A DNA stretch of 47,342 nucleotides. It comes from Acidothermus sp. GTDB taxonomy: Bacteria; Actinomycetota; Actinomycetes; Acidothermales; Acidothermaceae. Shown here piece after piece: positions 5,863 to 29,719 of this stretch. Location of the stretch: NCBI GenBank assembly GCA_023512015.1, contig JAIMAI010000017.1, forward strand, positions 1 through 47,342. Reading direction: 5' to 3'. The translations under genes were made by a program, and so were the position numbers. Under the pieces are notes generated by a model. The model made no database searches and had not been told where the DNA came from. It was given only the letters and a program-made list of their open reading frames with translations. Positions within the stretch are counted from its first letter, which is position 1; each line of letters begins with the position of its first letter.

Positions 5863-7035
5863 TTACGCGATGGTCACGACGGACGGTGTTCCGGCGGACT
5901 CGGCGTGCTCGCCGTCGGCCTGCATCTCCTCGGCAAGTCGCATGGCTTCTTCGAGCAACGTCTCGACGATCTGCGATTCCGGTACCGTCTTGACCACCTG
6001 GCCGCGCACGAAAATCTGGCCCTTGCCGTTTCCGGAGGCCACTCCGAGGTCGGCTTCCCGCGCCTCGCCGGGCCCGTTGACCACGCATCCCATCACGGCG
6101 ACCCGCAGCGGTACCGGGAATCCTTCCAGACCGGCCTGCACTTCTTCGGCCAACTTGTAGACGTCGACCTGGGCGCGTCCGCACGACGGACACGAAACGA
6201 TCTCCAGCTTGCGTTGCCGCAGCCCGAGCGACTCCAGAATTCCGATACCCACCTTCACTTCCTCGACGGGCGGCGCCGAAAGCGACACTCGGATCGTGTC
6301 ACCGATCCCCTCCGACAGCAGAATCGCGAACGCCACCGCCGATTTGATGGTGCCCTGCAACAACGGACCGGCCTCCGTCACCCCGAGGTGCAGCGGATAA
6401 TCGGTTTCCGCCGCCAGTTGCCGGTAGGCCTGGACCATCACCATAGGGTCGTGGTGCTTCACCGAAATCTTGATGTCGTGAAAATCGTGTTCCTCGAAAA
6501 GGCTCGCTTCCCATTTCGCGGATTCCACCAGCGCTTCAGCGGTGGCCTTGCCGTATTTCTGCAGGAACCGCGGATCGAGCGAACCGGCGTTCACCCCGAT
6601 GCGAATCGGCGTCCCGTGGTCCTTTGCGGCCTGAGCGATTTCCTTGACCTTGTCGTCGAATTTCTTGATGTTGCCGGGATTCACCCGGACGCCGGCACAC
6701 CCCGCCTCGATGGCCGCGAACACGTACTTCGGCTGGAAGTGGATGTCGGCGATGACCGGAATCGGCGACTTCTTCGCGATGATCGGAAGCGCGTCGGCGT
6801 CGTCCTGACTGGGGCAGGCCACCCGCACGATGTCGCAACCGGCGGCCGCGAGCTCCGCGATCTGCTGCAGCGTGGCGTCGACGTCGGCGGTGAGCGTCGT
6901 CGTCATGGACTGCACCGAGATCGGTGCGCCCCCACCGACCAACACTCCTCCGACGTTGATCTGACGTGATTTCCGCCGAGGAGCCAACGGACTCTTCGCG
7001 GGAACCTCTGGGACGCCGAGATTGATCGTGGTCAC
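5863..7035 (-). CDS. ispG: 4-hydroxy-3-methylbut-2-en-1-yl diphosphate synthase
   Basis: IspG reductively converts MEcPP to HMBPP in the MEP isoprenoid pathway, using a [4Fe-4S] cluster. The protein has 390 residues, usual for the bacterial two-domain form: an N-terminal TIM barrel ([12 protein letters not shown] near 41-52) and a C-terminal cluster domain. The cluster ligands are Cys282 and Cys285 in SCPSCGR, Cys317 in [10 protein letters not shown], and Glu324. The GTG start at 7035 has GAGGAG 6 nt upstream. It lies 83 nt after rseP and two genes after dxr, the common actinobacterial order. Confidence 0.97.
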
Positions 7036-7118: not shown

Positions 7119-8360
7119 TCACTGGAACGGGTTCGCCACCGGGTTGACCAGGTCCGCGTACAGCAGGATGAGCGACATTCCCACGATCAAGGCTAGCGCG
7201 GTGTACGTCACCGGCATCAACTTGGTCAGGTCCACCGGGCCGCCGGCCGGACGCCCGCGCCACCGGCGTATCGCGTCGCGGGCTTTCTCGTAGGCGAGGA
7301 TCGCGACGTGTCCGCCGTCCAACGGCAACAGCGGCAGCAAATTGAACACTCCGACGAAGATGTTCACGGACGCGATGACGCTGATGAGCACCGCGACACC
7401 GGCCGACGTCCCTTCGGCGGCGAACGCTTCCCCGGCCAGGTGGGCCACACCCACCACGCTGGTGACCTGGCCTCCGCCGTTCCCGATTTCCCTCGGGGCG
7501 TTCGGATTGGCCACCAAGGTCGCGAGCTCGCGCGGCACGGTACCGAGGGCCCGGAACGAATCGACCACCCCGGTCGCAAACATCCGCCCTGCGGCCGCCG
7601 CGGCACCGAGCGGCCCCTGCCGGACCAGCTGATCCACCGGGGCGACCCCCACGTGCGGGTAGCCGTCCGGCCCGATCACCGGCGTCAGGGTGATGGTCAG
7701 GATCCGGCCGTCACGTTCCACGGTGAAGGTCACCGGGCCGCTCGTCGATCGGGTGAGCGCCACCACGCCGTCCGCTCCCCCGCGCACCTGTTTGCCGGAC
7801 GGCGGCAGCGACGGGTCGTGCAGGACGGCCGGGGTCTTCTTGACGTCGCGCCCGTCAACCGCGAGGATCACGTCACCGACCTGGAGCCGGCCGTAGGCCG
7901 GGGCGGGAGGCGCGGACGGCGGACACTGCCCGGCGCCGTTCGGGATCGCGCACCGGTACACCGTCCCCACTTGGGCGTAGCCGGTGGGTTTGGTCGGCCA
8001 CGCCATCGCGAAAGAAAAGAGCAGCACGAGCGCGATGACGAAATGCGCGGCGGAACCGGCGACCAGCACGACGAGCCGCTGCGGCCCCGGCTGGTTGATG
8101 AACGCCCGCGGACGGTCTTCCGGAGCGATCCGCTCCAGCGGGGTCATTCCGACGATTTTCACGAATCCGCCCGCCGGGATGGCTTTGACCCCGTATTCGG
8201 TTTCACCTTTCTTTCGTGACCACAACGTGGGCCCGAATCCCACGAAGAATTGCGTGGCTTTCATGCCGAAGAGCCGGGCGAACACGAAATGCCCCGCCTC
8301 GTGCAACATCACCGATATCAGCAAGGCGACGACAAAGGCGATAATCCCCAACACCATCAT
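7119..8360 (-). CDS. rseP: Membrane-embedded site-2 zinc protease (RseP/M50 family)
   Basis: M50-family intramembrane proteases cleave anti-sigma factors and other membrane proteins within the bilayer. The zinc motif HEAGH is at residues 20-24 in the first membrane segment. A central PDZ-like region follows (YGRLQVGDVILAVDGR), and LLPLDGGH in the C-terminal membrane segments supplies the third metal ligand. The length is 413 aa, normal for the family. The ATG (8360) overlaps the dxr stop as ATGA, so it is coupled to dxr. Confidence 0.93.
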   Translation of the reverse strand: MMVLGIIAFVVALLISVMLHEAGHFVFARLFGMKATQFFVGFGPTLWSRKKGETEYGVKAIPAGGFVKIVGMTPLERIAPEDRPRAFINQPGPQRLVVLVAGSAAHFVIALVLLFSFAMAWPTKPTGYAQVGTVYRCAIPNGAGQCPPSAPPAPAYGRLQVGDVILAVDGRDVKKTPAVLHDPSLPPSGKQVRGGADGVVALTRSTSGPVTFTVERDGRILTITLTPVIGPDGYPHVGVAPVDQLVRQGPLGAAAAAGRMFATGVVDSFRALGTVPRELATLVANPNAPREIGNGGGQVTSVVGVAHLAGEAFAAEGTSAGVAVLISVIASVNIFVGVFNLLPLLPLDGGHVAILAYEKARDAIRRWRGRPAGGPVDLTKLMPVTYTALALIVGMSLILLYADLVNPVANPFQ

Positions 8361-9640
8361 GGCGTGGCGCTCCCCGCCCGCCGGGCGATGACGTCCCTCG
8401 CCATGCGCCGCGCCACGGTCTCGGCTTCCAGGACGTCGTCCAGGTCCCGCACCGGGGAGACCCCCGCCGCCAGGAATTCCTCGACCACCTCGGCGACCGT
8501 GTCCACGATCCCGAGGAAATCCAGTCGACCGGCGAGGAAAGCACTCACCGCCTCTTCGTTCGCCGCGTTGAAGGCCGCCGGCGCGGTGTGGCCGACGGTT
8601 CCCACCCGGCGCGCGATGTCGATGGCGGGGAACGTTTCGCCGTCCACCGGCTCGAAAACCCACGACGTCGCCTGCCGCCAATCGCACGGCGGGATCACCT
8701 CCGCGAGGCGATGCGGCCACGCCAACGCCAGCGCGATCGGCAAACGCATGTTCGGCGGCGAACAGTGCGCCACCGTCGACCCGTCAATGAATTCCACCAT
8801 CGAGTGCACTACCGACTGGGGATGCACCACGACGTCGATCCGATCGAACGGCACGTCGAAAAGCAGATGCGCCTCGATGACTTCCAGCGCCTTGTTCACC
8901 AAGGTCGCGGAATTCACGGTGATGACCGGGCCCATCCGCCAGGTCGGATGCGCCAGAGCCTCGGCCGCACTCACTCCCACGAGATCGCGGCGTCGCCGTC
9001 CGCGGAAAGGCCCGCCGCTGGCCGTGAGCAGCAATCGGCGGATTTCCTCCCGCCGTCCCGCCCGCAGGCACTGGGCGAGCGCGGAATGCTCGGAGTCGAC
9101 CGGGACGATCTGGCCCGGCGTAGCGATCGAGGTGACGAGCGGACCGCCGACGATCAGCGATTCCTTGTTGGCGAGGGCCAGGATGCGCCCGGCCCGCAGA
9201 GCAGCGAGGGTCGGAGCAAGGCCGATCGAGCCGGTGATCCCGTTGAGCACCACGCCGTCGTCCAAGGGCCACGCCGCGACCTCGCAGGCGGAATCCGGCC
9301 CGGTGAGGACCTTCGGGGCACTGGCCTGCCCGGCCGCGGCGGCAGCCGCCGCAAGCGCGGCTTCGACCTGGTCGGCGTCGGCGCCGGTCACGCCCACCAC
9401 TTCCACGCCGAACTCGACCGCCTGCCGGGCGAGGAGATCGAGTCGACCCCCTCCGGCGGCCAACCCGACGACCCGGAAATACCCGGGGTGGGAGCGGACG
9501 ACGTCCAGCGCCTGCGTGCCGATCGAACCCGTCGAGCCGAGGATCACGAGCGGCCGGGGAGTCGAGGGCTGCCACAGCGCGGTGGGCGACTGCCCGGGAA
9601 GGAGGGGGTGCGGCTGCCTCGACTGCGGCGACTGGCTCAC
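8357..9640 (-). CDS. dxr: 1-deoxy-D-xylulose 5-phosphate reductoisomerase (class I)
   Basis: DXR converts DXP to MEP with NADPH, the first committed step of the MEP pathway. The N-terminal Rossmann motif is LGSTGSIGTQALDVV (34-48). The NKES segment (ALANKESLIVGG), the metal and substrate loop VDSEHSAL and HPQSVVHSMVE are all present. The product is 427 aa, slightly long because of a Pro/Gln-rich N-terminal tail of about 28 residues. It starts with GTG 10 nt after the MMPL stop and overlaps rseP by 4 nt. This is canonical class I DXR, unlike the DRL-type homolog at 21009. Confidence 0.97.
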   Translation of the reverse strand: MSQSPQSRQPHPLLPGQSPTALWQPSTPRPLVILGSTGSIGTQALDVVRSHPGYFRVVGLAAGGGRLDLLARQAVEFGVEVVGVTGADADQVEAALAAAAAAAGQASAPKVLTGPDSACEVAAWPLDDGVVLNGITGSIGLAPTLAALRAGRILALANKESLIVGGPLVTSIATPGQIVPVDSEHSALAQCLRAGRREEIRRLLLTASGGPFRGRRRRDLVGVSAAEALAHPTWRMGPVITVNSATLVNKALEVIEAHLLFDVPFDRIDVVVHPQSVVHSMVEFIDGSTVAHCSPPNMRLPIALALAWPHRLAEVIPPCDWRQATSWVFEPVDGETFPAIDIARRVGTVGHTAPAAFNAANEEAVSAFLAGRLDFLGIVDTVAEVVEEFLAAGVSPVRDLDDVLEAETVARRMARDVIARRAGSATP

Positions 9641-19908: not shown

Positions 19909-19980
19909 TCGGCCGAGGGTCGTCTGAGTCCAGCCCATGCCATTGCGCCACGTCAACCAGCCGTGGTAGAAATGGCTCGG

Positions 19981-20007
19981 ATGTGATGTAACCGAACGGA
20001 TGTGATG
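19981..20007 (+). promoter_or_regulatory. Direct-repeat operator upstream of the SorC regulator gene
   Basis: ATGTGATG occurs at 19981-19988 and again at 20000-20007, 19 bp apart and ending 4 bp before the GTG start. The second copy is preceded by CCGAACGG. The same arrangement, with CTGAACAT before the second copy, recurs at 23523-23549 in front of the E1alpha gene. This suggests autoregulation by the SorC protein. Confidence 0.65.
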
Positions 20008-20011
20008 TTTG

Positions 20012-20968
20012 GTGCGACCGGCACGCGACCGTGAGCAGCTCATCAAGGCCGCGCGGATGTACTTCATCGACGGTCTGTCGCAGCAACAGATCGCCGAGGT
20101 CTTGGGTACCACCCGCTCGAACGTGTCCCGGATCCTCACGGCAGCTCGGGAGCAGGGCATCGTCGAGATCCGCATCAACGAGCCGACCCAGCGCTCCTAC
20201 CGGCTGGAGGCAGAGCTCACCGCGCGGTTTCCGGGGCTCGAAGCGAGGGTGCTCGCTCCTCGGGCGCATCAGGACCCCCTCGCAGACGTAGGCCATCTCG
20301 CCGCGCAATGGCTCTCAGAGCGTCTGACCCGTGGCTTGCGTATCGCCCTCGCCTGGGGCGGCACCCTCCAGGCGATGGTCCGTGCGATGCAGCCGTCTCC
20401 CACCGAGGACGTGGAAATCGTGCAACTGGTCGGTGGCTTGTCGGCGCTGACGCTGCACGTCAGCGGTCAAGAACTCGTGCGCCAGCTCGCCGACAAGCTC
20501 GAGTGCCGTTACCGCTACCTTCACGCCCCCGCCCTTTTCGAGTCCGCGCCGGCTCTTCGGGCTCTATTGCGTGAGCCTGCCATCGCCACAGCCCTCGATG
20601 CCGCTCGTCACGCCGACATCGCCTGCGTCGGGATCGGCGCCGTCGGGATCGGTTCGTCGGCCGAGATCATCGAAGCGCTCCGGCTCAGTCCCGCCGAACG
20701 CGCGGAGTTCGAGTCCGCCCGGCCGGTAGGCGATATTTGCGCGCGGTTCTTCGATCAAACCGGGAACGAGATTCGATCCGCCGTCCACGACCGCGTTCTC
20801 GCCGTTGAGCTCGACGATCTTCGCGCGATTCCCGTAGTCGCAGGAGTCGCTGTCGGCGCGGTAAAAGGACCGGCGATCCGAGCGGCCTTGCAAGGCCGCC
20901 TCATCGACGTCCTCATCTGCGACGAAGCGGCCGCTCACGCCGTCCTTGCCGACAACCGAGAACCCTGA
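20012..20968 (+). CDS. SorC/DeoR-family sugar-phosphate-responsive transcriptional regulator
   Basis: The N-terminal helix-turn-helix (GLSQQQIAEVLGTTRSNVSR) is followed by a SorC-type effector domain of about 260 residues, with typical WGGTLQAMV and CVGIGAVGIGSS segments. Family members bind phosphorylated sugars and usually repress neighbouring catabolic operons. A GTG at 20012 or a TTG at 20009 is the start; neither has a Shine-Dalgarno sequence, so the mRNA may be leaderless or poorly translated. It is the first gene of a run with the DRL-like, IspD-like and zinc-ribbon genes. The operator pair suggests that it controls itself and the E1/E2 operon. Confidence 0.9.
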   Translation: MRPARDREQLIKAARMYFIDGLSQQQIAEVLGTTRSNVSRILTAAREQGIVEIRINEPTQRSYRLEAELTARFPGLEARVLAPRAHQDPLADVGHLAAQWLSERLTRGLRIALAWGGTLQAMVRAMQPSPTEDVEIVQLVGGLSALTLHVSGQELVRQLADKLECRYRYLHAPALFESAPALRALLREPAIATALDAARHADIACVGIGAVGIGSSAEIIEALRLSPAERAEFESARPVGDICARFFDQTGNEIRSAVHDRVLAVELDDLRAIPVVAGVAVGAVKGPAIRAALQGRLIDVLICDEAAAHAVLADNREP

Positions 20969-21008
20969 ACCGAGCCGGTTCGGAGACCGGCATCCTGAGG
21001 AGCCACTG

Positions 21009-22340
21009 GTGGGATATACGCAACGCCTAGCCGCCCGTCAGGCAGAGTACGGTCGCCCGATCCGGGTCGGTCTCGTCGGCGCAGGCCAGATGGGACGTGG
21101 TTACGTCACCCAGGTGAGCCGCATCACCGGAATGGAAGTCGTGGCGATCGCCGATGTGGTGGCCGCGCGAGCGCAGTCGGTCTTCGCGGCCGTCGGAGTC
21201 GAAGACGTAGCCGGTCCAGATCTGCCATTCGAGCGCTTGTGCCGAACCGTCGACAACGGTGGGCACGTCGTGACGACGTCCGCCGAAGAATTGACCGCGC
21301 TACCGGTCGACGTCGTGGTCGAGGCGACGGGCGTCCCCGAGGTAGGTGCCAAGGTCGCCATGCAAGCCCTGCTCGGGGGACGGCATGTGGCGATGCTGAA
21401 CGTGGAAACCGACGCGACGGTCGGACTCTTGCTCGCCTCGATCGCCCGCAGTGCAGGCCTCGTCTACACCGTCTGTCGGGGCGACGAACCTGTTGAGGCC
21501 AAGCGCCTGGTCGACTATGCACGCGATCTTTCATTCGAGGTCATCTGCGCTGGAAAGGGAAAGAACAACCCTCTCGACGTCCATGCCACGCCGGACGCCC
21601 TCGCTTCCGAGGCCAAGGCAAAGAACATGAATCCGAAGATGCTTACGAGCTTCGTCGACGGGTCCAAGGCGATGATCGAGATGGTGGCCCTGGCAAACGC
21701 AACCGGGTTGTCCGTGAGTCGGCGTGGATTACACGGACCGTACAGCACCGTCGAAGATTTGCCGCGAGTTTTCAGCTTGCGCGCAGACGGCGGGGTGGTC
21801 GAACGTCCCGGAATCGTCGACTACGCAACCGGCCCGGTTGCCCCCGGAGTCTTCGTCGTCGTCCACACCGATGTGCCTACCGTGCTCGAAGAGCTCGATT
21901 ACCTCAAATGCGGCAGCGGACCGTACTACGCGTTCTACCGGCCGTTCCACCTGGCGAGCATCGAGGCACCGCTATCGGTGGCCGCCGCCGTCCTCGACCA
22001 CCAGGTAGATCTCGCTCCCACCACTTGGACGGCGGAAGTCGTCGCCGTGGCGAAACGGCCGCTCCGTGCCGGCGAATTCCTCGACCACATCGGGGGCTAC
22101 ACGGTGTACGGACTCGCAGAAGATGCCACGGTGGCGCGCCGGGAGGAACTGCTCCCTCTCGGGCTCGTCGATGGCGCACGTGTCGTACGCGATATTCCGG
22201 TGGACACCCCGTTGCGGTATTCGGACGTCGAGCTGGTCGCCGATTCCGTTGTGGTCAACATGCGCGCCCTGCAGGATGCGTTGATTCGCAATCACGAAGC
22301 GGCACTGGCCGTGAACCATGAAGCTACCGTTCCCGCTTGA
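21009..22340 (+). CDS. DRL/DXR-II-like NAD(P)-dependent oxidoreductase with SAF domain
   Basis: This 443-residue protein has an N-terminal Rossmann fold (VGLVGAGQMGRGYV, 20-33), a homoserine-dehydrogenase-like middle, and a C-terminal SAF region (VAKRPLRAGEFLDHIGGYTV). That architecture is COG4091. It includes the DXR-like reductoisomerase DRL of Brucella, which makes MEP from DXP, and related oxidoreductases of unknown substrate (DLO). Canonical dxr is also present in this window, so a different or redundant substrate is likely. The GTG at 21009 has GAGGAG 6 nt upstream. The IspD-like gene overlaps its 3' end by 23 nt. Family membership is firm; the reaction is not. Confidence 0.8.
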   Translation: MGYTQRLAARQAEYGRPIRVGLVGAGQMGRGYVTQVSRITGMEVVAIADVVAARAQSVFAAVGVEDVAGPDLPFERLCRTVDNGGHVVTTSAEELTALPVDVVVEATGVPEVGAKVAMQALLGGRHVAMLNVETDATVGLLLASIARSAGLVYTVCRGDEPVEAKRLVDYARDLSFEVICAGKGKNNPLDVHATPDALASEAKAKNMNPKMLTSFVDGSKAMIEMVALANATGLSVSRRGLHGPYSTVEDLPRVFSLRADGGVVERPGIVDYATGPVAPGVFVVVHTDVPTVLEELDYLKCGSGPYYAFYRPFHLASIEAPLSVAAAVLDHQVDLAPTTWTAEVVAVAKRPLRAGEFLDHIGGYTVYGLAEDATVARREELLPLGLVDGARVVRDIPVDTPLRYSDVELVADSVVVNMRALQDALIRNHEAALAVNHEATVPA

Positions 22341-23067
22341 AAGCAGACGTCCTGCTTCTTCTCACGCCGCCGTCGTCCTGGCCGGAGGACGCGTCGCAGG
22401 CCCACGGCTCGGCCCCGACATCGCGTTGCTCTCCCTCGCCGGACGCCGCTTACTCTCCCGAGCGGTCGCGACATTGTTGGACGACACCGGCGTCACCCAA
22501 ATCGTCATCGTGATCGACCCAGCGGACGCCGACAACGCACGAGCACTGTTGTCGCGGGAACTCGGTGACGTCCCGTGCATCTTCGCAAGTGGCGGTTTTG
22601 CGGTTCAGGCCTCGCTGGCAAATGGAGTCGAGGTTCTCGCCGATGCGATCACCCGCGGCGCGTACGACCTGATCGTCGTACACGATGCTGCTTTTGCGCT
22701 GGCTCCGCCGCATTTGGTCCGTGAGGTGATTGCGACCGCACGTCACTTCGGGGCCGCCGTTCCCTACATCGGGCTCGACGACTTCGTCTGGATCGACCGA
22801 ATGGGGACGCCGTTGCGTTTCGGGCGAGACGACCGCATTCACATCCAGACGCCGCAGGCGTTCCGCGCCGTTGAACTCCTCCACGCCTGTCGTCGGGCGG
22901 CACTCGAACACTTCGCCGTCGGCACGACTGCGGAAGCGATGGAACGGTACTGCGGGAGAAGGGTTCGCGGCGTGCCAGGCGACACCCGCAACGTCGCCAT
23001 CCGCTCTCCCCTCGATCTGTTCGCGGCGGAGGGGGTGCTCGCGACGTCCCACTACGCCTTGCACTGA
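22318..23067 (+). CDS. IspD-family protein with degenerate active site
   Basis: The fold follows IspD (MEP cytidylyltransferase) along its whole 249 residues: VVLAGG (19-24), VVHDAA (120-125), QTPQAF (178-183) and PGDTRNVAIRSPLDLF near 220-235. Ungapped comparison with the canonical copy at 26936 shows that the catalytic Arg20 is Gly28, Lys27 is Ile35 and the second-site Lys218 is Ala227. The Arg-x-x-Ser of the GGxxRxxS loop is also lost. It is therefore probably not a working cytidylyltransferase of the usual type; it may be a partner subunit or have a changed reaction. It overlaps the DRL-like gene and is followed by a zinc-ribbon gene. Confidence 0.8.
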   Translation: MKLPFPLESRRPASSHAAVVLAGGRVAGPRLGPDIALLSLAGRRLLSRAVATLLDDTGVTQIVIVIDPADADNARALLSRELGDVPCIFASGGFAVQASLANGVEVLADAITRGAYDLIVVHDAAFALAPPHLVREVIATARHFGAAVPYIGLDDFVWIDRMGTPLRFGRDDRIHIQTPQAFRAVELLHACRRAALEHFAVGTTAEAMERYCGRRVRGVPGDTRNVAIRSPLDLFAAEGVLATSHYALH

Positions 23068-23123
23068 GCCGACCACAGGAGGCGGATTGCGGCCACCAGA
23101 CGCCGGCCGAGGGAGGTGATCTC

Positions 23124-23444
23124 GTGTCCGAAGAGGCCCGCGCCGTTCTGACCTGCGCGAACTGCGCGGAACCAACCCTGCACGTCGTCCGCTACGCCGG
23201 CCGACTTATCGCTGATATCCGTTGCACCCGCTGCGGAACCATCACCGCCCGTGATTCGCGGGAGGCATGGGCGGAGTACCTCCGCGATCTCGAGCAGCGT
23301 CTCCTCAGCAAGCCGACGCGAACGGCACGCCGAGCTGTGCGCGACCCGGTGGGGTTCGTCGTTCGCCTCCCGCTCGCGCTGGCCCGACAGCCGATGAAGC
23401 TGCTGCGCGAATGGAAAGTGCTGCGTGAGATCTCCCGTCACTGA
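23124..23444 (+). CDS. Small zinc-ribbon protein, copy 1
   Basis: This 106-residue protein has two CxxC knuckles (Cys11/Cys14 and Cys34/Cys37), expected to bind one zinc. The flanking motif CAEPTLH and the RYAGR segment recur in the second copy at 27679. The C-terminal half is basic and helical (EYLRDLEQRLLSKP onward), with several Arg and Trp residues. The GTG start has GGGAGGTGAT upstream. I do not recognise a named family. It follows an IspD-like gene, as its paralog does, so it probably acts with that protein, perhaps as a scaffold or nucleic-acid or membrane-contact factor. Confidence 0.8.
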   Translation: MSEEARAVLTCANCAEPTLHVVRYAGRLIADIRCTRCGTITARDSREAWAEYLRDLEQRLLSKPTRTARRAVRDPVGFVVRLPLALARQPMKLLREWKVLREISRH

Positions 23445-23482
23445 GGGCACCGCTTTCACCCGGCTCGTGGTGACCGGCTGAC

Positions 23483-23512
23483 TTTACAGGGAAGGGCCGG
23501 CCGTGCTATCCA
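23483..23512 (+). promoter_or_regulatory. Candidate promoter of the E1alpha-E1beta-E2 operon
   Basis: TTTACA (23483-23488), an 18-bp spacer and TATCCA (23507-23512) place a transcript start near 23519, immediately upstream of the direct-repeat operator. Confidence 0.5.
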
Positions 23513-23522
23513 TGAAGGAAAG

Positions 23523-23549
23523 ATGTGACGCTACTGAACATATGTGATG
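23523..23549 (+). promoter_or_regulatory. Direct-repeat operator upstream of the 2-oxoacid dehydrogenase operon
   Basis: ATGTGACG (23523-23530) and ATGTGATG (23542-23549) lie 19 bp apart, the same period as in front of the SorC gene. The second copy is preceded by CTGAACAT, matching CCGAACGG there. It lies between the predicted transcript start and the ATG, a place suited to repression. Confidence 0.65.
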
Positions 23550-23562
23550 ATTGCGAGGGCTG

Positions 23563-24534
23563 ATGACTACGAAGCTTTGTCAGGAACCCGAGTTGGCCCG
23601 ACGAGCCCTCGCGACTATGTGGACGATCCGGCGCTTCGAGGAGGCCGTGGACGACCTCTTCGCACGGGGTTTGATCTACGGAACCATGCACTTGTCGATC
23701 GGACAAGAGGCAACCGCCACCGGTGTTTGCCTCGCCCTCGCCGACGACGATCTGATCACGTCTACCCATCGAGGCCACGGCCACTGCATCGCAAAGGGTG
23801 CGGACCTGGAGCGAATGATGGCGGAGTTGCTCGCCAAGGAGACCGGGTACTGCCGGGGGCGAGGGGGATCGATGCACATCGCCGACGTGGCCCGCGGAAA
23901 CCTGGGGGCCAACGGGATCGTCGCGGGAGGAATTCCGATCGCGGTAGGAGCCGGTCTTGCGCAGCGGCTACAAGGCACCCGCCGGGTCGTCGCCAGTTTC
24001 TTCGGCGACGGCGCCGCCAACGAAGGCGCTTTTCACGAGGCAGTCAACCTCGCAGCGATCTGGGATTTACCGGTTGTCTTCGTCTGCGAGAACAACCAGT
24101 ACGGCATGTCGATGCCGACGAGCCGCGCGTTTCGTATCCCACGCATCAGCCAACGTGCCGCCGCATATGGCATCCCGGGAGTCACCGTCGACGGCAACGA
24201 CATCCAAGCCGTGTACGACGAGACAGTGGTGGCGGTCGAACGTGCGCGCGCTGGGGAGGGCCCGACCTTCATCGAAGCCATCACCTACCGCTGGAAAGGG
24301 CATTCGAAGAGTGACAAGAACCTCTATCGAACCCGAGAAGAAATCGAGGAGTGGAAGAGCCGCGATCCGATCGGTCGTTTCGAGGCGGCCGTCGAAGCGG
24401 CGGGGACCTTCAATCGATCCGAGATCGAGACGATTCGGTCGAGTGCTCGTGACGCCGTACGCGACGCGATTGCTCGGGCCCACGCCGCGCCCGACGCGCG
24501 CCCGGACGAACTGCGTGACGCCGTTTACGCGTGA
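23563..24534 (+). CDS. TPP-dependent 2-oxoacid/acetoin dehydrogenase E1 component, alpha subunit
   Basis: This 323-residue protein carries the TPP-binding motif that starts GDGAANEG (148-155) and ends ENN (176-178). MHLSIGQEA and HRGHGH are typical of PDH, BCKDH and acetoin E1alpha chains. With the beta chain it decarboxylates a 2-oxo acid (or cleaves acetoin) and passes the acyl group to E2 lipoate. The ATG at 23563 has GAGGG just upstream. It is the first gene of the operon after the SorC-type operator. Substrate class is uncertain; the length and motifs fit the AcoA group. Confidence 0.92.
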
Positions 24535-24557
24535 GACAACGAATTCAAGAGGTCAGG

Positions 24558-25577
24558 GTGGCAAGTACGACGATCGAACGAACCGCTAGTGATACCCGCA
24601 CCTGCAGCTATGCCGAAGCCATCCGCGAAGCGTTGGCCCAGGCCATGGAAAGCGACGAGCGCGTCTTCCTGCTCGGCGAGGACATCGGCGTTTACGGAGG
24701 CGCATTCGGCGTCACTACAGGTTTGCTCGAACGATTCGGAGCGGAGCGGGTACGAGACACACCGATCTCGGAACTCGGCATCGTTGGGGCGGCGGTAGGG
24801 GCCGCCCTCGCGGGGATGCGACCCGTCGTCGAAATCCAATTCTCGGATTTCACGGCTCAAGCGATGGATCAAATCGTCAACCAAGCTGCGAAAATCCATT
24901 ACATGCTGGGGGGTGCAGCGAGCGTGCCGATGGTGCTCCGCGCGCCGGGAGGCTCGGGCACCGGGGCAGCCGCCCAGCACTCCCAGAGCCTGGAGGCGTG
25001 GTTCGCGCACGTTCCCGGCCTGAAGGTAGTGCTTCCCGCCACCCCCGCCGATGCGAAAGGACTCCTGCTCGCAGCGATCGACGACCCCAACCCCGTCATC
25101 TTCCTCGAGCACAAATTGCTCTACAAGTCGTCGGGCCCGGTGCCGACTGAGCCCGTCCGCGAGACCTTGGGTGCGGCGCGCGTGCACCGTGACGGAGACG
25201 ACCTGACCATCGTCGCGACGAGCGTGATGGTGGAGCGGTCCCTGCAAGCTGCGGATGAGCTCGCCGCCGACGGCATCCACGCAACGGTGGTCGATCCGCG
25301 CACCATCAAGCCATTGGACGCCGCCACGATCCTCGCAGCCGTGCGCCGAACCGGGCGGCTTCTTCTCGTGCAAGAGGCCCCGCTGACCGGGGGCTTCGTC
25401 TCGGAAATCGCGGCTCTAGTGGCGGGATGCGACGCTCTCTACTCGTTGGTCGCTCCGATCCGGCGACTCTGCGGTCTCGACGTCCCGATTCCTTATGCCC
25501 CCCAGCTCGAACGTGCCGCCGTCCCCCAGGTCCCGGATATCGTCAAAGCCGCCCGTGAACTGGTCATGGAGTCGTAG
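24558..25577 (+). CDS. TPP-dependent 2-oxoacid/acetoin dehydrogenase E1 component, beta subunit
   Basis: This protein of about 339 residues contains [38 protein letters not shown] and EIQFSDF, the usual transketolase-like beta-chain markers. The C-terminal transketolase domain has [10 protein letters not shown]. The GTG at 24558 has GAGGT nearby; an in-frame GTG at 24531 overlaps the E1alpha stop (GTGA) and is the alternative. It ends one base before the E2 ATG. It pairs with the alpha subunit in an alpha2beta2 E1. Confidence 0.92.
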
Positions 25578-26801
25578 ATGGCCGACCTCCCGCTGCGGAT
25601 GCCGAAAATGTCGATGACGATGGAGAGCGGCGAAATCCTGGCCTGGCACAAACGCGAAGGTGACAGCGTCCGCGCCGGCGACATCGTCTGCGAAGTGGCC
25701 ACCGACAAGGTGGACATGGACGTCGAAGCACCGGCCGACGGCGTCCTCGCCCGTATCGTCGCGGCACCCGGTCAGAAAGTCGCCGTCGGCGAGCCGATCG
25801 CCTACCTTTCCTCGGAGACCGAGGACATCCTCGCCGACATCCTTCCCCCTTCGACCCCCGACCGAGTCGAGGAATCGGCCGCTCCCCCGCAGTCGACCGC
25901 ACCCGACGAGTACGAAGCGACGCCGCCGTCGCGCAAGGGACCCCGGCCCGCGATACCGCGAGCCCGCCGGCTGGCCGCAGAGCTCGGGATCGACCTCGAG
26001 ACGGTCACCCCGACCGGGCGAGGCGGTGTGATCACACCTGCCGACGTCGAACGTGCCGCGCAGCGCCACCGGACGAGCCCTCCGAGGGCCCCCGAGAACA
26101 CACCGGACACCGCCGCCTTTGCCGACGCGTTGCGCGACCGACGAACGCGGCTGCGATCTGTGATCGCTCATCGTATGCAGCAGAGCGCAGCGATCCCCCA
26201 ATTCACCGTTTTCCGCGACATCATCGTGGACACCGTCGCGAGGTCACGACAGGGGATCGGGTGGACCACCCTCTTTGTGAAGGCTCTCGCTCTTGCGCTG
26301 CGGGAGAACGGTGATCTGACCACCCCCTGGCTCGACGACGGCCCGGGTTCGCCGACGGACGACATCGCCGTCGCCATAGCCGTCGACACGCCGGTGGGCC
26401 TGCTCGCCCCGGTCGTGCACCACGCGGACACGATCTCCCTGACGAGCCTCCAATCAGAGGTGCGTGGCCTCGTAGACCGTGCGCGCTCGGGGAAGCTCAC
26501 CGCAACCGAACTCGAGGGAGCGGTCACCACCGTGTCGAATCTCGGGACGTTCGGGGTCGACATGTTCCAGGCGTTGCTCACTCCTCCGCAGCCATCGGTT
26601 CTCGCCCTCGGAGCGGTGCGACCTACGCTGGTGGCAACGGGTGATGGCTTCAGGGTTCGCACCGTCTGCACCGTTGGGCTCACCGTCGACCATCGGGTCG
26701 CCGACGGGGCGGACGCAGCGCGACTCCTCGACCGATTAGCGCAGCTCTTCGCCACGCCCCCCGAACAGTGGGCGGGCCCGCGACCCTATACCGATCAGTG
26801 A
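25578..26801 (+). CDS. Dihydrolipoamide acyltransferase E2 component
   Basis: Domain order in 407 residues: an N-terminal lipoyl domain with the lipoylated Lys44 in EVATDKVDM; an acidic Pro-rich linker; a peripheral-subunit-binding domain (about 124-160, PRARRLAAELGID); and a catalytic acyltransferase domain with the CAT-like motif DHRVADG (His372, Asp376). The ATG follows the E1beta stop directly. E2 transfers the acyl group from lipoate to CoA. No E3 (lipoamide dehydrogenase) lies in the cluster, so a housekeeping E3 is presumably recruited through the binding domain. Confidence 0.93.
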   Translation: MADLPLRMPKMSMTMESGEILAWHKREGDSVRAGDIVCEVATDKVDMDVEAPADGVLARIVAAPGQKVAVGEPIAYLSSETEDILADILPPSTPDRVEESAAPPQSTAPDEYEATPPSRKGPRPAIPRARRLAAELGIDLETVTPTGRGGVITPADVERAAQRHRTSPPRAPENTPDTAAFADALRDRRTRLRSVIAHRMQQSAAIPQFTVFRDIIVDTVARSRQGIGWTTLFVKALALALRENGDLTTPWLDDGPGSPTDDIAVAIAVDTPVGLLAPVVHHADTISLTSLQSEVRGLVDRARSGKLTATELEGAVTTVSNLGTFGVDMFQALLTPPQPSVLALGAVRPTLVATGDGFRVRTVCTVGLTVDHRVADGADAARLLDRLAQLFATPPEQWAGPRPYTDQ

Positions 26802-26853
26802 TGGTGCTGCCCGCGATGATTGCCGCCGGAGCGAGGATTGCACCAGAGCTCAC

Positions 26854-26876
26854 CCGCCCGATCCGGGCGGTTCTTC
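26854..26876 (+). terminator. Probable terminator after the E1/E2 operon
   Basis: CCGCCCG (26854-26860), loop ATC and CGGGCGG (26864-26870) form a perfect 7-bp stem followed by TTCTTC, 52 bp after the E2 stop. The T tract is weak, so termination may be partial. Confidence 0.5.
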
Positions 26877-26919
26877 GCTGCATCCGCGTGCCGGGGCACG
26901 AATCAGCGCGCCGGACCGA

Positions 26920-26928
26920 TGCTAACCT
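26920..26928 (+). promoter_or_regulatory. Extended -10 promoter of the canonical ispD gene (leaderless)
   Basis: TGC followed by TAACCT ends 8 bp before the ATG at 26936, which would put the transcript start on the A of the start codon. There is no Shine-Dalgarno sequence and no good -35 box; the TGN extension could compensate. Confidence 0.45.
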
Positions 26929-26935
26929 CACAGAC

Positions 26936-27658
26936 ATGCTTTCCCAGAAACCATCGGCTGTCGCCGTCGTACTCGCCGGTGGGAATGGGAGTCGCTTCGG
27001 TGCAGCTCAAAACAAGGTATATCTCCCGCTCGCCGGACGGCGGGTGATTTCGTGGTCGGTCGAGTCACTTGCCCGCGTCCCGAACGTCACGGGAATCGTG
27101 GTTGCCGTACGCCGTGACGAGCGGGCTTTCGCCGCCGCCGTGCTGGAGCGAGAGGTCCCAGATGCCCCTGTTCTTCTCGTCGACGGTGGACAGTCCCGGC
27201 ACGAGTCCGAATACAACGCGTTTCGCGCTATCGAGGAGCGAGGTATCAATGCAGACGTCCTCGTCGTCCACGACGGGGCACGACCGCTGATCTCCCCCGA
27301 TTTGGTGAGTCGGCTCATCGGGGTGGCCTACGCGGTCGGTGGGGCCATCCCGGCACTCCCCGCGCCGGACGTCGTTGCCCTCGGTGAGGAAGGCCTCATC
27401 GAGCCCGTTATGGACGACGCTCCCGTCGCGCGCGTGCAGACTCCGCAGGTATTCCGGACCGGCGCGGTACTGACCGCCTATCACGCCGCCGCGCGCGAAG
27501 GATTCATCGGTACCGATACCGCTTCTTGCGTGGAGCATTTCACCGACACCGTGGTACAGACGATCCCGGGCGATGACCGAAACATCAAAGTGACGTATCC
27601 GCAGGACTTGTTCACCGCCGAACGAGTTCTCGCGGTAACCCATTACGTGATGCGGTAA
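26936..27658 (+). CDS. ispD: 2-C-methyl-D-erythritol 4-phosphate cytidylyltransferase (canonical IspD)
   Basis: This 240-residue protein keeps the full IspD active site. VLAGGNGSRFG has Arg20 and NKVYLP has Lys27, at the same numbers as in E. coli. The GGQSRHES loop, VVHDGARP (111-117), VQTPQVF, and NIKVT with Lys218 are also present. IspD joins MEP and CTP to give CDP-ME and pyrophosphate; relatives such as TarI/Bcs1 use ribitol 5-phosphate, so a related polyol phosphate cannot be excluded. Zinc-ribbon copy 2 follows 20 nt later. The start at 26936 is preferred over long upstream extensions that overlap E2. Confidence 0.88.
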   Translation: MLSQKPSAVAVVLAGGNGSRFGAAQNKVYLPLAGRRVISWSVESLARVPNVTGIVVAVRRDERAFAAAVLEREVPDAPVLLVDGGQSRHESEYNAFRAIEERGINADVLVVHDGARPLISPDLVSRLIGVAYAVGGAIPALPAPDVVALGEEGLIEPVMDDAPVARVQTPQVFRTGAVLTAYHAAAREGFIGTDTASCVEHFTDTVVQTIPGDDRNIKVTYPQDLFTAERVLAVTHYVMR

Positions 27659-27678
27659 CGGCAACAAGGAGGATCGAG

Positions 27679-28032
27679 ATGGGCTCGGAAGGCCACGCGG
27701 CACCTGAGTGGACGGCGACCGTGTACCTCGCCGAACTGAGCTGCGGCCGCTGTGCGGAACCGAGCCTGCACGAACTGCGTTACGCCGGCCGCATTCTAGT
27801 GGCCTCACGGTGCACCAATTGCGGAGCCACGTTGCGTCGTGCCGATCCTGCCTTGTGGATCGAATACCTGGAGGATCTCCTGCAGCGGGTGCGCACCAAG
27901 CCTCGGCGTATGGCCACCCGAGCGCTTCGCAACCCACGACGCTTCTTCTCCGAACTGCCGAAATCGATGCTGACCAAGCCGGTACATCTGGCTGAAGAAT
28001 TCCGCACCTTGCTGCCGATCGGCAAAGTCTGA
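27679..28032 (+). CDS. Small zinc-ribbon protein, copy 2
   Basis: This 117-residue paralog of the protein at 23124 has Cys22/Cys25 and Cys45/Cys48 as CxxC pairs. It shares CAEPSLH, RYAGR and RCTNCG, and the helical tail EYLEDLLQRVRTKP aligns without gaps to copy 1. AAGGAGG lies 6 nt before the ATG. It follows the canonical ispD as copy 1 follows the degenerate one, so the two-gene unit appears duplicated. Function unknown; four cysteines suggest a single structural zinc. Confidence 0.82.
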   Translation: MGSEGHAAPEWTATVYLAELSCGRCAEPSLHELRYAGRILVASRCTNCGATLRRADPALWIEYLEDLLQRVRTKPRRMATRALRNPRRFFSELPKSMLTKPVHLAEEFRTLLPIGKV

Positions 28033-28115: not shown

Positions 28116-29075
28116 GTGGAGGCGGGATGGCTCACGATCGCCGCACTCTTCGCGGTGGTCACCGGCGCCAACGACGGCGCGGCCATCGTCGCCTCCGGCC
28201 TGCGGGTCTCCTTCCTTCGCCCTTTGACAGCGCTGCTGGTCCTCGTGGCGGGCGTACTCATCTCCCCGCTGCTCTTCGGGACCGAGGTGGCCGCGACCCT
28301 CTCCCACCGTCTGGTCACCTTCAAAGCGGACGGCGGACGCACCGCTTTCGCCCTGGGCCTGCTCGCGGCACTGCTGGTGGTAGGAGTGCTGACCGCTATG
28401 GGCCGGCCCACCAGCCTGACGGTCGCGCTGATCGGCGGGATCGCAGGTGCGGGACTCGGCTACGGTCTTCCGGTTGCCTGGACGACGGTGGGACGGGTAC
28501 TCGTCTTCGGATTGCTCTCACCGCTTTTCGGAGGCCTGGTCGGGCTCGGCCTTGCTCGGATGCTCCGCCACGCCCCGCCCTTGCAGCACATGCCGTTGGT
28601 GATGCGCGTCGGTACGTTGCTGGGCTACGGGCTGCTGGCGCTCGCCTACGGCGCCAACGACGGGCAGAAGATGCTCGCGGTTTTCGCGGTCGCGCAAAGC
28701 GGTAATGGCCATATCAAGGCGGACGCGCTTACACTCGGGCTCACAGGCCTGTGTTTCGTCGCTGGGGCGGCGGCTAGTTTGCCTCGGCTGGCATCACGTC
28801 TCGGCGCCGAGCTGCTCAGGGTGCGTCCGCTGCATGCGATGACGGCGCAGACGGCCTCAGCAGCCGCAGCCTTCGGCAGCGCGCTCGCACACGCGCCGGT
28901 CAGCATGACCCAGTCGTTGGCCGCGTCGCTCGTCGGCTCGGGGGCGAGCGAAGGATCGAGGAGGGTGCGATGGAGAGCAGTGAGCCGGCTCGGGATGGCG
29001 TGGGTGGTGACGCTGCCCGCCAGCATCGCGGTCTCGTCGGCAGTGGCCGGGCTCGTGCACGCCGTCGCGGGTTGA
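28116..29075 (+). CDS. PiT-family inorganic phosphate transporter
   Basis: The two inverted PHO4 signatures are present: GANDGAAIVASG near the N terminus and YGANDGQKM in the second half. About nine hydrophobic segments are seen in 319 residues. PiT proteins are phosphate or metal-phosphate symporters in the cytoplasmic membrane. The start is GTG; AAGGAG lies 12 nt upstream, a rather long spacing. The stop overlaps the ATG of the DUF47 gene. PiT/DUF47 pairs are common. Its place after the ispD/zinc-ribbon unit may be chance. Confidence 0.85.
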   Translation: MEAGWLTIAALFAVVTGANDGAAIVASGLRVSFLRPLTALLVLVAGVLISPLLFGTEVAATLSHRLVTFKADGGRTAFALGLLAALLVVGVLTAMGRPTSLTVALIGGIAGAGLGYGLPVAWTTVGRVLVFGLLSPLFGGLVGLGLARMLRHAPPLQHMPLVMRVGTLLGYGLLALAYGANDGQKMLAVFAVAQSGNGHIKADALTLGLTGLCFVAGAAASLPRLASRLGAELLRVRPLHAMTAQTASAAAAFGSALAHAPVSMTQSLAASLVGSGASEGSRRVRWRAVSRLGMAWVVTLPASIAVSSAVAGLVHAVAG

Positions 29076-29719
29076 TGCGCCGTCGACGACTCCCCCGACT
29101 CCTCGGCGATCTCCTCGGTCATTTCGACGAGCAGCTCGTCTCCATCCTCGTGGGCCAGATCGACGCCGCCATCCGCGGTGCCGAATTGGCCCGACGTATG
29201 ACCCGCGGCGAGGTCTCCCCCGACGCCGCCCGTGAAGAAATGCGCGACCTCGAGCACCAGGGGGATCGCAAGCGTGCCGAGTTGGTCTCTGCGCTCGCCG
29301 CGGCATTGACCACTCCGATCGACCGCGAAGACCTCTTCCGGTTCTCGCGCCTGGTGGACGACGTCCTCGACGGGCTCCGAGATTTCGTGCGTGAAACCGA
29401 CCTCTACGGCCTGGGTGACCAAGAATCGGTCACCCCCGTGCTGGACGCCGTCCTGGAAGGGCTGGGGACTCTGCGGGAGGCGGCGAGCGAGCTTGCGGAG
29501 CGTCCCCACCAAGCCGGGCTGACGACGGTCGCGGCGAAGAAGGCGGCGAACAAAGTACGGCGTTCGTACGCGATGGAGCTTGCGGAGTTGTTCAACCAGC
29601 CGTTCAACGTGGAGACCATGAAGCGTCGAGAATTGCTGCGCCGCATCGACGTCGTGGGGATGCGGCTCAGCGAGGCGGCGGACGCGCTCGCGGACGGAAT
29701 CATCAAGCGGAGCAGCTGA
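29075..29719 (+). CDS. DUF47 / PhoU-like phosphate transport accessory protein
   Basis: This 214-residue, almost all-helical protein has DLEHQGDRKRAEL and EDLFRFSRLVDDVLDGL, as in DUF47 proteins related to PhoU, which partner PiT transporters. It starts with ATG at 29075, where TGATG joins it to the PiT stop. It probably regulates the transporter in response to phosphate or metal. The run ends head-on against rlmN, 17 nt away. Confidence 0.85.
   Translation: MRRRRLPRLLGDLLGHFDEQLVSILVGQIDAAIRGAELARRMTRGEVSPDAAREEMRDLEHQGDRKRAELVSALAAALTTPIDREDLFRFSRLVDDVLDGLRDFVRETDLYGLGDQESVTPVLDAVLEGLGTLREAASELAERPHQAGLTTVAAKKAANKVRRSYAMELAELFNQPFNVETMKRRELLRRIDVVGMRLSEAADALADGIIKRSS

Follow-up and report, generated by a model that had tools for sequence, protein, structure and literature searches.

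Why would a bacterium with an ordinary methylerythritol phosphate pathway keep, in one operon, a second set of proteins resembling that pathway's enzymes? The question is raised by the window analyzed here, a 47,342-nucleotide stretch of Acidothermus sp. DNA (contig JAIMAI010000017.1, positions 1 to 47,342, of assembly GCA_023512015.1; 2.12 Mb, 87% complete). Nine genes on its + strand (20009-28032) encode a SorC regulator, a DRL-type reductoisomerase, the IspD paralogue IspD1, the zinc-ribbon protein Zn1, the E1alpha, E1beta and E2 subunits of a dehydrogenase complex, IspD2 and Zn2. From the conservation, residues and neighborhoods of these genes, we consider that the operon probably breaks down 2-C-methyl-D-erythritol-type polyols via the first two steps of the pathway, run in reverse. 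We hold a pathway around 1-deoxy-D-xylulose 5-phosphate (DXP) and 2-C-methyl-D-erythritol 4-phosphate (MEP) to be likely, and the precise sugar to be less certain. An earlier note on this DNA had described the nine-gene set with its tight spacing beside a normal dxr and ispG; all nine reading frames were recovered, with Pfam families for all except the two small zinc-ribbon proteins, as were ordinary DXR (DXR-I; 8357..9640, − strand; PF02670, PF08436, PF13288) and ordinary IspG (5863..7035, − strand; GcpE, 479.6 bits), members of the normal MEP pathway. DXS lies on another contig of this genome, and ispF, adjoining a degenerate IspD, on another contig as well.

The proposed route and its direction

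In relatives of the operon, a glucitol-type phosphotransferase system (PTS) would import methylerythritol (ME) as MEP, while some copies without this PTS may use a transporter and a sugar kinase instead. DRL, probably with NAD+, would then oxidize MEP to DXP, which E1alpha/E1beta with thiamine pyrophosphate (TPP) would cleave by DXS chemistry in reverse, in analogy to acetoin dehydrogenase, freeing glyceraldehyde-3-phosphate; the acetyl group would pass to the E2 lipoate and on to acetyl-CoA, and E3 would reoxidize the lipoate. SorC would sense a sugar phosphate of the route, and IspD2 probably diverts MEP to isoprenoid synthesis. The conversion of MEP via DXP to glyceraldehyde-3-phosphate and acetyl-CoA requires no further enzyme, and the DXR reaction is reversible. 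E1 chemistry on DXP is supported by PMC3424233, in the part consulted, according to which E. coli with aceE mutations can make DXP and the purified pyruvate dehydrogenase makes 1-deoxyxylulose. According to a title in the reference list of PMC3994034, the sorbitol PTS carries ME into Salmonella.

The system is very probably catabolic. Breakdown is favored over synthesis because relatives have phosphorylating uptake genes, because E2 and, in several loci, E3 would make acyl-CoA, because every one of the 18 genomes checked has DXS and the window genome also has DXR-I, because Asp or Glu occupies the cofactor site of all 40 readable cluster-type DRLs, and because five genomes of a family termed f26 keep DRL and IspD without E1alpha within 10 kb or EII-GUT.

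The earlier note had suggested looking for the gene set in other genomes and would have taken a lack of conservation as a refutation; the neighborhood proved conserved. A zinc-ribbon profile returned 20 loci from a species-level genome collection, hosted by Nocardioides, Marmoricola, Klenkia, Modestobacter, Kineosporia, Mycolicibacterium canariasense and unclassified actinobacterial metagenome-assembled genomes. DRL is present in 18 of these loci, EII-GUT in 17, E1alpha or E2 in 15, IspD in 19 and a SorC homologue in 16 (tblastn; L051 has a partial one); the five without E1alpha/E2 (L036, L040, L041, L050, L052) come from short contigs or from the very end of a contig. The usual actinobacterial order is E1alpha-E1beta-E2-SorC-GutM-EIIC-EIIBC-IIA-DRL-IspD-Zn, with GutM, EII-GUT, EIIBC-GUT and PTSIIA_gutA confirmed by Pfam as PTS genes at L042, and one genome (G030) has the set in two loci, E1alpha-E1beta-E2-EIIC-GAT-IIA-SorC-IspD-Zn and DRL-PTS-SorC. 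In our class-level sample, which like the family sample is a draw from a larger group, 42 of 393 genomes have a DRL_cat match. Among the 40 class-genome DRL loci read (those of G188, G345 and G381 were left out), each of the 12 whose DRL is 50-62% locally identical to that of the window has E1alpha, EII-GUT or IspD within 10 kb (E1alpha in 6, EII-GUT in 7, IspD in 10 and the zinc ribbon in 6; IspD alone in five); in the 28 at 28-41% local identity, none of E1alpha, EII-GUT and IspD was found within that distance.

The window DRL also matches 111 plasmid records, of which the best 40 were considered and 10 DRL neighborhoods read. Rhizobium sophoriradicis and Sinorhizobium meliloti carry an ABC importer, a sugar kinase, SorC, DRL, E1alpha, E1beta, E2 and E3; Rhizobium B230/85, Nitratireductor, Terrarubrum and Pseudoroseomonas a glucitol PTS with its own ptsP, DRL, E1alpha, E1beta and E2; and Priestia E1-E2-E3, SorC, a major facilitator superfamily (MFS) transporter, a further SorC, DRL and an FGGY kinase. 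None of the Rhizobiales-type and Priestia clusters read carries an annotated IspD. At a threshold of at least 60% identity, 34 plasmid records match the window E1alpha, and 33 of them have a DRL match close by, adjoining in 32 and about 8.5 kb away in Priestia. As judged from these gene neighborhoods, the DRL-E1-E2 core spans Actinobacteria, Rhizobiales-type Alphaproteobacteria and Priestia.

Many relatives share GutM, EII-GUT, EIIBC-GUT and IIA-GUT genes with the sorbitol (srl/gut) operon. Unlike that operon, the five PTS-bearing plasmid loci read have no annotated sorbitol-6-phosphate dehydrogenase, the clusters carry DRL and mostly E1/E2, and the window genome yielded no EII-GUT.

Two plasmid clusters are followed by cofactor genes. 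In Rhizobium B230/85 (L167, 13392-16843), thiC, thiS and thiazole synthase genes come after the DRL-E1 cluster, and in Sinorhizobium meliloti (L169, 12826-13794) a lipoyl synthase gene comes after E3. DXP is a thiazole precursor, and TPP is the cofactor of E1.

The DRL-type reductoisomerase and the predicted DXP-cleaving complex

The DRL gene (20946..22340, + strand) encodes a DRL_cat domain (212 bits; E 5.6e-101 to the Brucella structure 3upl) and a SAF domain, and its predicted reaction is MEP to DXP. The product keeps the equivalents of Lys191, Lys193, His250 and Arg320. Its function can be approached through f26, which is probably Nanopelagicaceae, because two of the database proteins closest to its DRL bear the name Candidatus Nanopelagicaceae (68-71% identity), and whose habitat we take to be freshwater. 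Among 151 f26 genomes, 25 have DRL, 113 DXR-I, 13 neither and none both; among the 84 of high quality, the counts are 20 and 62. The chance of zero overlap, ignoring kinship, is 2e-19, and two genera (g28 and g96) contain both states. In the 18-genome set, all eight f26 genomes with a cluster-type DRL lack DXR-I, and two f26 members without DRL have it. Since DRL replaces DXR-I in f26 and the two never occur together, the cluster DRL subfamily very probably interconverts DXP and MEP, doing DXR's work.

The f26 genomes with DRL and no ordinary DXR found are G076, G113, G209, G235, G261, G293, G317, G392 and 17 more members. At two f26 loci (L090, 10741-13434; L092, 10683-13283), a large gene adjoining DRL resembles, by eye, a regulator of the LuxR/MalT type.

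Passages of the family's own paper (PMC3847144) describe Lys191 and Lys193 as the fosmidomycin anchors and Thr229 as absolutely conserved in DXR-II. Both lysines are kept in 37/37 cluster-type DRLs versus 0/28 other DRLs. This figure is independent of our 42-row table of the Thr229 position, whose rows were chosen by the motif GKGKNN and in which the lysines count by construction. Thr occupies position 229 in all eight f26 DRLs read. Strand beta-2 ends in Asp or Glu in 40/40 readable cluster-type DRLs, where 3upl has Ala-Arg-Arg; an acidic residue at this place is the rule that separates NAD-type from NADP-type sites. In a tree built without L088, L036 and nine distant outgroup rows, 3upl falls inside the alphaproteobacterial DRLs, and it is 71-75% identical to six of them, five of which lie beside E1alpha.

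Compared with DXR-II/DRL of Brucella and with DLO1/DLO2, the window protein thus shares DRL_cat and SAF domains, Lys191, Lys193 and Arg320, and belongs to a subfamily that replaces DXR-I in f26. It differs in its operon context of import and E1/E2 genes, in the acidic cofactor-site residue of its type and in the Ala that it has for Thr229. In view of this Ala and of the unsettled deeper branching of the tree, we describe the window DRL as DXR-II-like in its work without assigning it to DXR-II.

The three genes of the complex follow as E1alpha (23551..24534; E1_dh, 308.6 bits), E1beta (24531..25577; Transket_pyr, 161.6 bits, and Transketolase_C, 131.7 bits) and E2 (25578..26801; Biotin_lipoyl, E3_binding and 2-oxoacid_dh), all on the + strand and predicted to cleave DXP and to form acetyl-CoA. 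Window E1alpha carries the loop KGHSKSDK and belongs to the cluster E1alpha clade: in a tree made without 10 duplicate or fragment rows, 26 of 27 cluster sequences form one clade with support 97/91. DRL is present at the same locus for 25 of the 27; for L029 it lies elsewhere in the genome, and for L172 none was found. The loop motif [KR]GHS[KR]SD occurs in 27/27 cluster E1alphas versus 0/25 others, and its extra basic residues may bind the substrate phosphate.

A Clostridioides difficile plasmid (L165, 4138-11876) encodes MFS, SorC, E1alpha, E1beta, E2 and E3, with no DRL in the stretch read. Its E1alpha loop is GHSKSD, lacking the leading basic residue, and the cluster is perhaps a variant for another substrate.

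Weighing the alternatives

Genes for E1alpha, E1beta and E2 together are what marks an acetoin dehydrogenase (AcoABC with E3), and they are present in the window. In both systems an alpha-hydroxyketone would be cleaved and its acetyl group captured in the form of acetyl-CoA. Could the operon then be an ordinary acetoin or pyruvate dehydrogenase operon that neighbors a sugar regulator and MEP-like genes by chance? E1/E2 are similar to pyruvate dehydrogenase, and the best E1alpha matches beyond the cluster set include those of two Enterococcus operons that, by their gene order, look like acetoin operons. However, the cluster E1alphas form a separate clade; window E1alpha neither groups with the acetoin-type operon E1alphas nor has the GHFEGD loop of the Enterococcus rows; the clusters have SorC rather than a sigma-54 activator and a predicted phosphorylated substrate; and DRL and E1 co-occur in Actinobacteria, Rhizobiales and Priestia. 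The probability that we leave to chance neighborhood is accordingly slight. The earlier note had also offered a speculative version, in which E1 stands in for DXS in an anabolic upper MEP branch. E1 mutants of pyruvate dehydrogenase can form DXP (PMC3424233), but DXS is present in 18/18 genomes, and five f26 genomes retain DRL and IspD with no E1alpha within 10 kb (genome-wide, none in G076 and G293). We therefore give this branch next to no probability.

The same note's preferred outcome was a sugar-phosphate-induced route to a separate CDP-polyol, with a polyol phosphate formed by DRL and activated by IspD, and with E1 feeding or draining the carbon. One operon with two IspD paralogues and a SorC regulator would suit such a route, yet the Rhizobiales-type and Priestia clusters read have no annotated IspD, IspD1 lacks catalytic residues, in 8/8 f26 DRL genomes checked the sole full-length IspD match other than probable GlmU frames is of the IspD2 type, and Pfam shows no CDP-polyol transferase among the nine genes. 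The PTS, E2 and occasional E3 genes point to import and breakdown, and we hold the CDP-polyol route to be very unlikely. What survives of the new MEP-like pathway that the note had proposed is one conserved MEP-related system; the new product is not supported, and the direction is probably breakdown. A closer competitor makes DRL a plain dehydrogenase of some other deoxy-polyol phosphate, with E1/E2 cleaving the resulting 1-deoxyketose phosphate to acetyl-CoA and a substrate other than methylerythritol. In its favor, Ala replaces Thr229 in 21 of 42 rows, the window included; the means of uptake differ between clusters (a glucitol-type PTS, a galactitol-type PTS or a transporter with a kinase); and, in the passages of PMC3847144, the DLO families are not known DXRs. 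The same DRL subfamily replaces DXR-I, however, both anchor lysines are kept in 37/37, and a reductoisomerase is needed for branched MEP but not for a simple polyol. We consider this alternative unlikely.

Several observations weigh against methylerythritol breakdown itself. No transporter or kinase is among the nine operon genes, and EII-GUT was not found in the window genome, which is 87% complete. At the Thr229 position, which marks DXR-II, the window DRL has Ala; half of the 42 rows, 3upl among them, have Thr there (21), and the other 21 (the window and 20 other cluster-type rows) have Ala. The beta-2 Asp also occurs in f26 DRLs that must serve synthesis, and in the three-way fork of the DRL tree the actinobacterial cluster type may join either the 3upl group or the DLO-like rows. 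As passages of PMC3847144 report, the DXR-II clade includes 11 functional sequences, and a dxr mutant was not complemented by any of four relatives from the DLO families. Not every copy has the full set: the five f26 genomes mentioned above have DRL and IspD with no E1alpha within 10 kb (and no EII-GUT genome-wide); in Aminobacter, the stretch read contains DRL, E1alpha, E1beta and E2 but no PTS or kinase; Listeria innocua (L055) has SorC, DRL, GutM and a glucitol PTS, and Phyllobacterium (L056) an ABC importer and DRL only, both with no E1 nearby; and L172 has a close E1alpha with no DRL within 8 kb. Finally, Priestia E1alpha lies just outside the main clade, beside the E1alpha of the C. difficile plasmid, where the stretch read contains no DRL.

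If methylerythritol breakdown is true, the operon represents a catabolic route for methylerythritol, and its conversion of DXP to acetyl-CoA and glyceraldehyde-3-phosphate is a new reaction of TPP and lipoate. It would also account for DXR-II existing beside a normal DXR, a coexistence whose reason is asked in the passages of PMC3847144 available to us. The cluster likely lets soil, plant-associated and freshwater bacteria consume methylerythritol. According to part of PMC5765163, 2-methylerythritol and 2-methylthreitol occur in isoprene aerosol, so that carbon from isoprene might re-enter the food web through these bacteria. Among the papers listed, from a collection with few subscription titles and judged by title and the opening of the abstract, we found no earlier report of ME catabolism (in the listed part of the hits), 2-methyltetrol biodegradation or DXR-II with a sorbitol PTS. 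For the whole picture taken jointly, we see about even chances: three phyla would eat methylerythritol by reversed DXR and DXS chemistry, with the new E1/E2 a DXP dehydrogenase; Brucella DXR-II would derive from this pathway; actinobacterial IspD would be split into an obligate pair of nucleotide site and substrate arm; and the natural substrates would be isoprene-aerosol 2-methyltetrols and plant methylerythritol.

The IspD pair, zinc-ribbon proteins and predicted operators

What are the two IspD paralogues for? IspD2 (26768..27658, + strand; Pfam IspD, 166.6 bits; alternative starts ATG 26801, which overlaps the E2 stop, or 26936) resembles the MEP cytidylyltransferase in its family match and catalytic residues, keeping R20, K27, D106, R109, T165, T189 and K213. 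It differs in having lost T140 and R157, which are kept in a separate degenerate partner. For numbering and roles we assume those of E. coli IspD, in which T140 and R157 presumably sit on an arm reaching into the other subunit. The pattern is general in our residue table, which was made without four spurious frames, two duplicates, IspD1 and the PDB row and in which near-identical rows of one genus were kept. The 15 canonical IspDs keep all nine named residues, except one Ser for T189. The 33 cluster-type IspDs all keep R20, K27, D106, R109, T165 and K213 (T189 in 27), with T140 in 0/33 and R157 in 1/33. In the 16 degenerate partners, D106 and R157 are kept in 16 and T140 in 14, R109 in 8, T165 in 7, R20 in 2, and K27 and K213 in none. 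IspD1 (22318..23067, + strand; Pfam IspD, 99.8 bits), a degenerate paralogue, lacks the equivalents of Lys27, Arg109, Thr140, Thr189 and Lys213; used as a query, it matches 58/60 relatives, chiefly ordinary IspD where residues were checked.

Within the 18-genome set, all 13 genomes with a cluster-type IspD have a partner-like second match (residues verified in 10 of the 13), and none was recognized in the five with a canonical-type IspD. A structure model of a degenerate partner (pLDDT 79.1), whose input alignment included two ordinary IspD-type rows, matches IspD structures with a best E of 6.5e-20. We predict that IspD is split here into two complementary half-enzymes that form an obligate heterodimer with one active site. 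The split was seen at the window (26768-27658), L003 (1444-2319), L178, L176, L027, L028, L029 (9877-10668), L091, L092, L095, L096 and L098; at L176, L027 and L028, the pair occurs with no E1alpha or DRL in view. The intact cluster-type IspD belongs, on this comparison, to isoprenoid synthesis, because in 8/8 f26 genomes with DRL it is the only full-length IspD match, frames of about 480 residues that are probably GlmU aside, and it adjoins DRL in genomes without DXR-I. This indicates that some actinobacteria make isoprenoids with both DXR and IspD replaced, which is relevant to the choice of MEP-pathway inhibitors; among the papers listed, judged by title and the opening of the abstract, we saw no earlier report of a heterodimeric IspD (in the listed part of the hits) or on isoprenoids in Nanopelagicales.

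The zinc-ribbon proteins Zn1 (23124..23444, + strand) and its paralogue Zn2 (27679..28032, + strand; 42% identity, four Cys kept) have no Pfam or NCBIfam family match. A single-sequence search with Zn1 returned only itself, a search with a four-relative alignment 161 matches, and C11, C14, C34 and C37 are invariant in an alignment of 32 relatives. The Zn1 model shows beta strands followed by two long helices (pLDDT 80.5), and no PDB entry matches it at an E of up to 0.001; a scan of viral contigs found no zinc ribbon. The family appears to track the catabolic gene set, because at f26 loci it is present in 3/3 with E1/PTS and 0/5 without, and because L093 has it without IspD.

SorC (20009..20968, + strand; Pfam Sugar-bind, 217 bits; start TTG 20009 or GTG 20012) is the putative regulator of two sites on the + strand, each predicted from its similarity to the other. 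Operator 1 (19980..20011) consists of two ATGTGATG units just 5' of and into sorC, and operator 2 (23522..23553) lies 5' of E1alpha. The shared operator motifs reported earlier are found again in this 32-bp predicted site: the two copies are identical at 24/32 bases, against a maximum of 20 and a mean of 17.6 in 60 dinucleotide shuffles. The zero expected count of the search pattern is not independent, as the pattern was derived from both sites themselves. SorC can be inferred to control both.

The spacing within the operon is tight: sorC and DRL overlap by 23 bp, DRL and IspD1 by 23 bp and E1alpha and E1beta by 4 bp, the E1beta/E2 gap is 0, at least four junctions touch or overlap, and the largest gap, between Zn1 and E1alpha, is 106 bp. 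IspD1-Zn1 (22318-23444) and IspD2-Zn2 (26768-28032) resemble a duplicated gene pair. Directly 3' of the operon (28116-29719) lie genes for a PHO4-family phosphate transporter and a PhoU-like (DUF47) protein.

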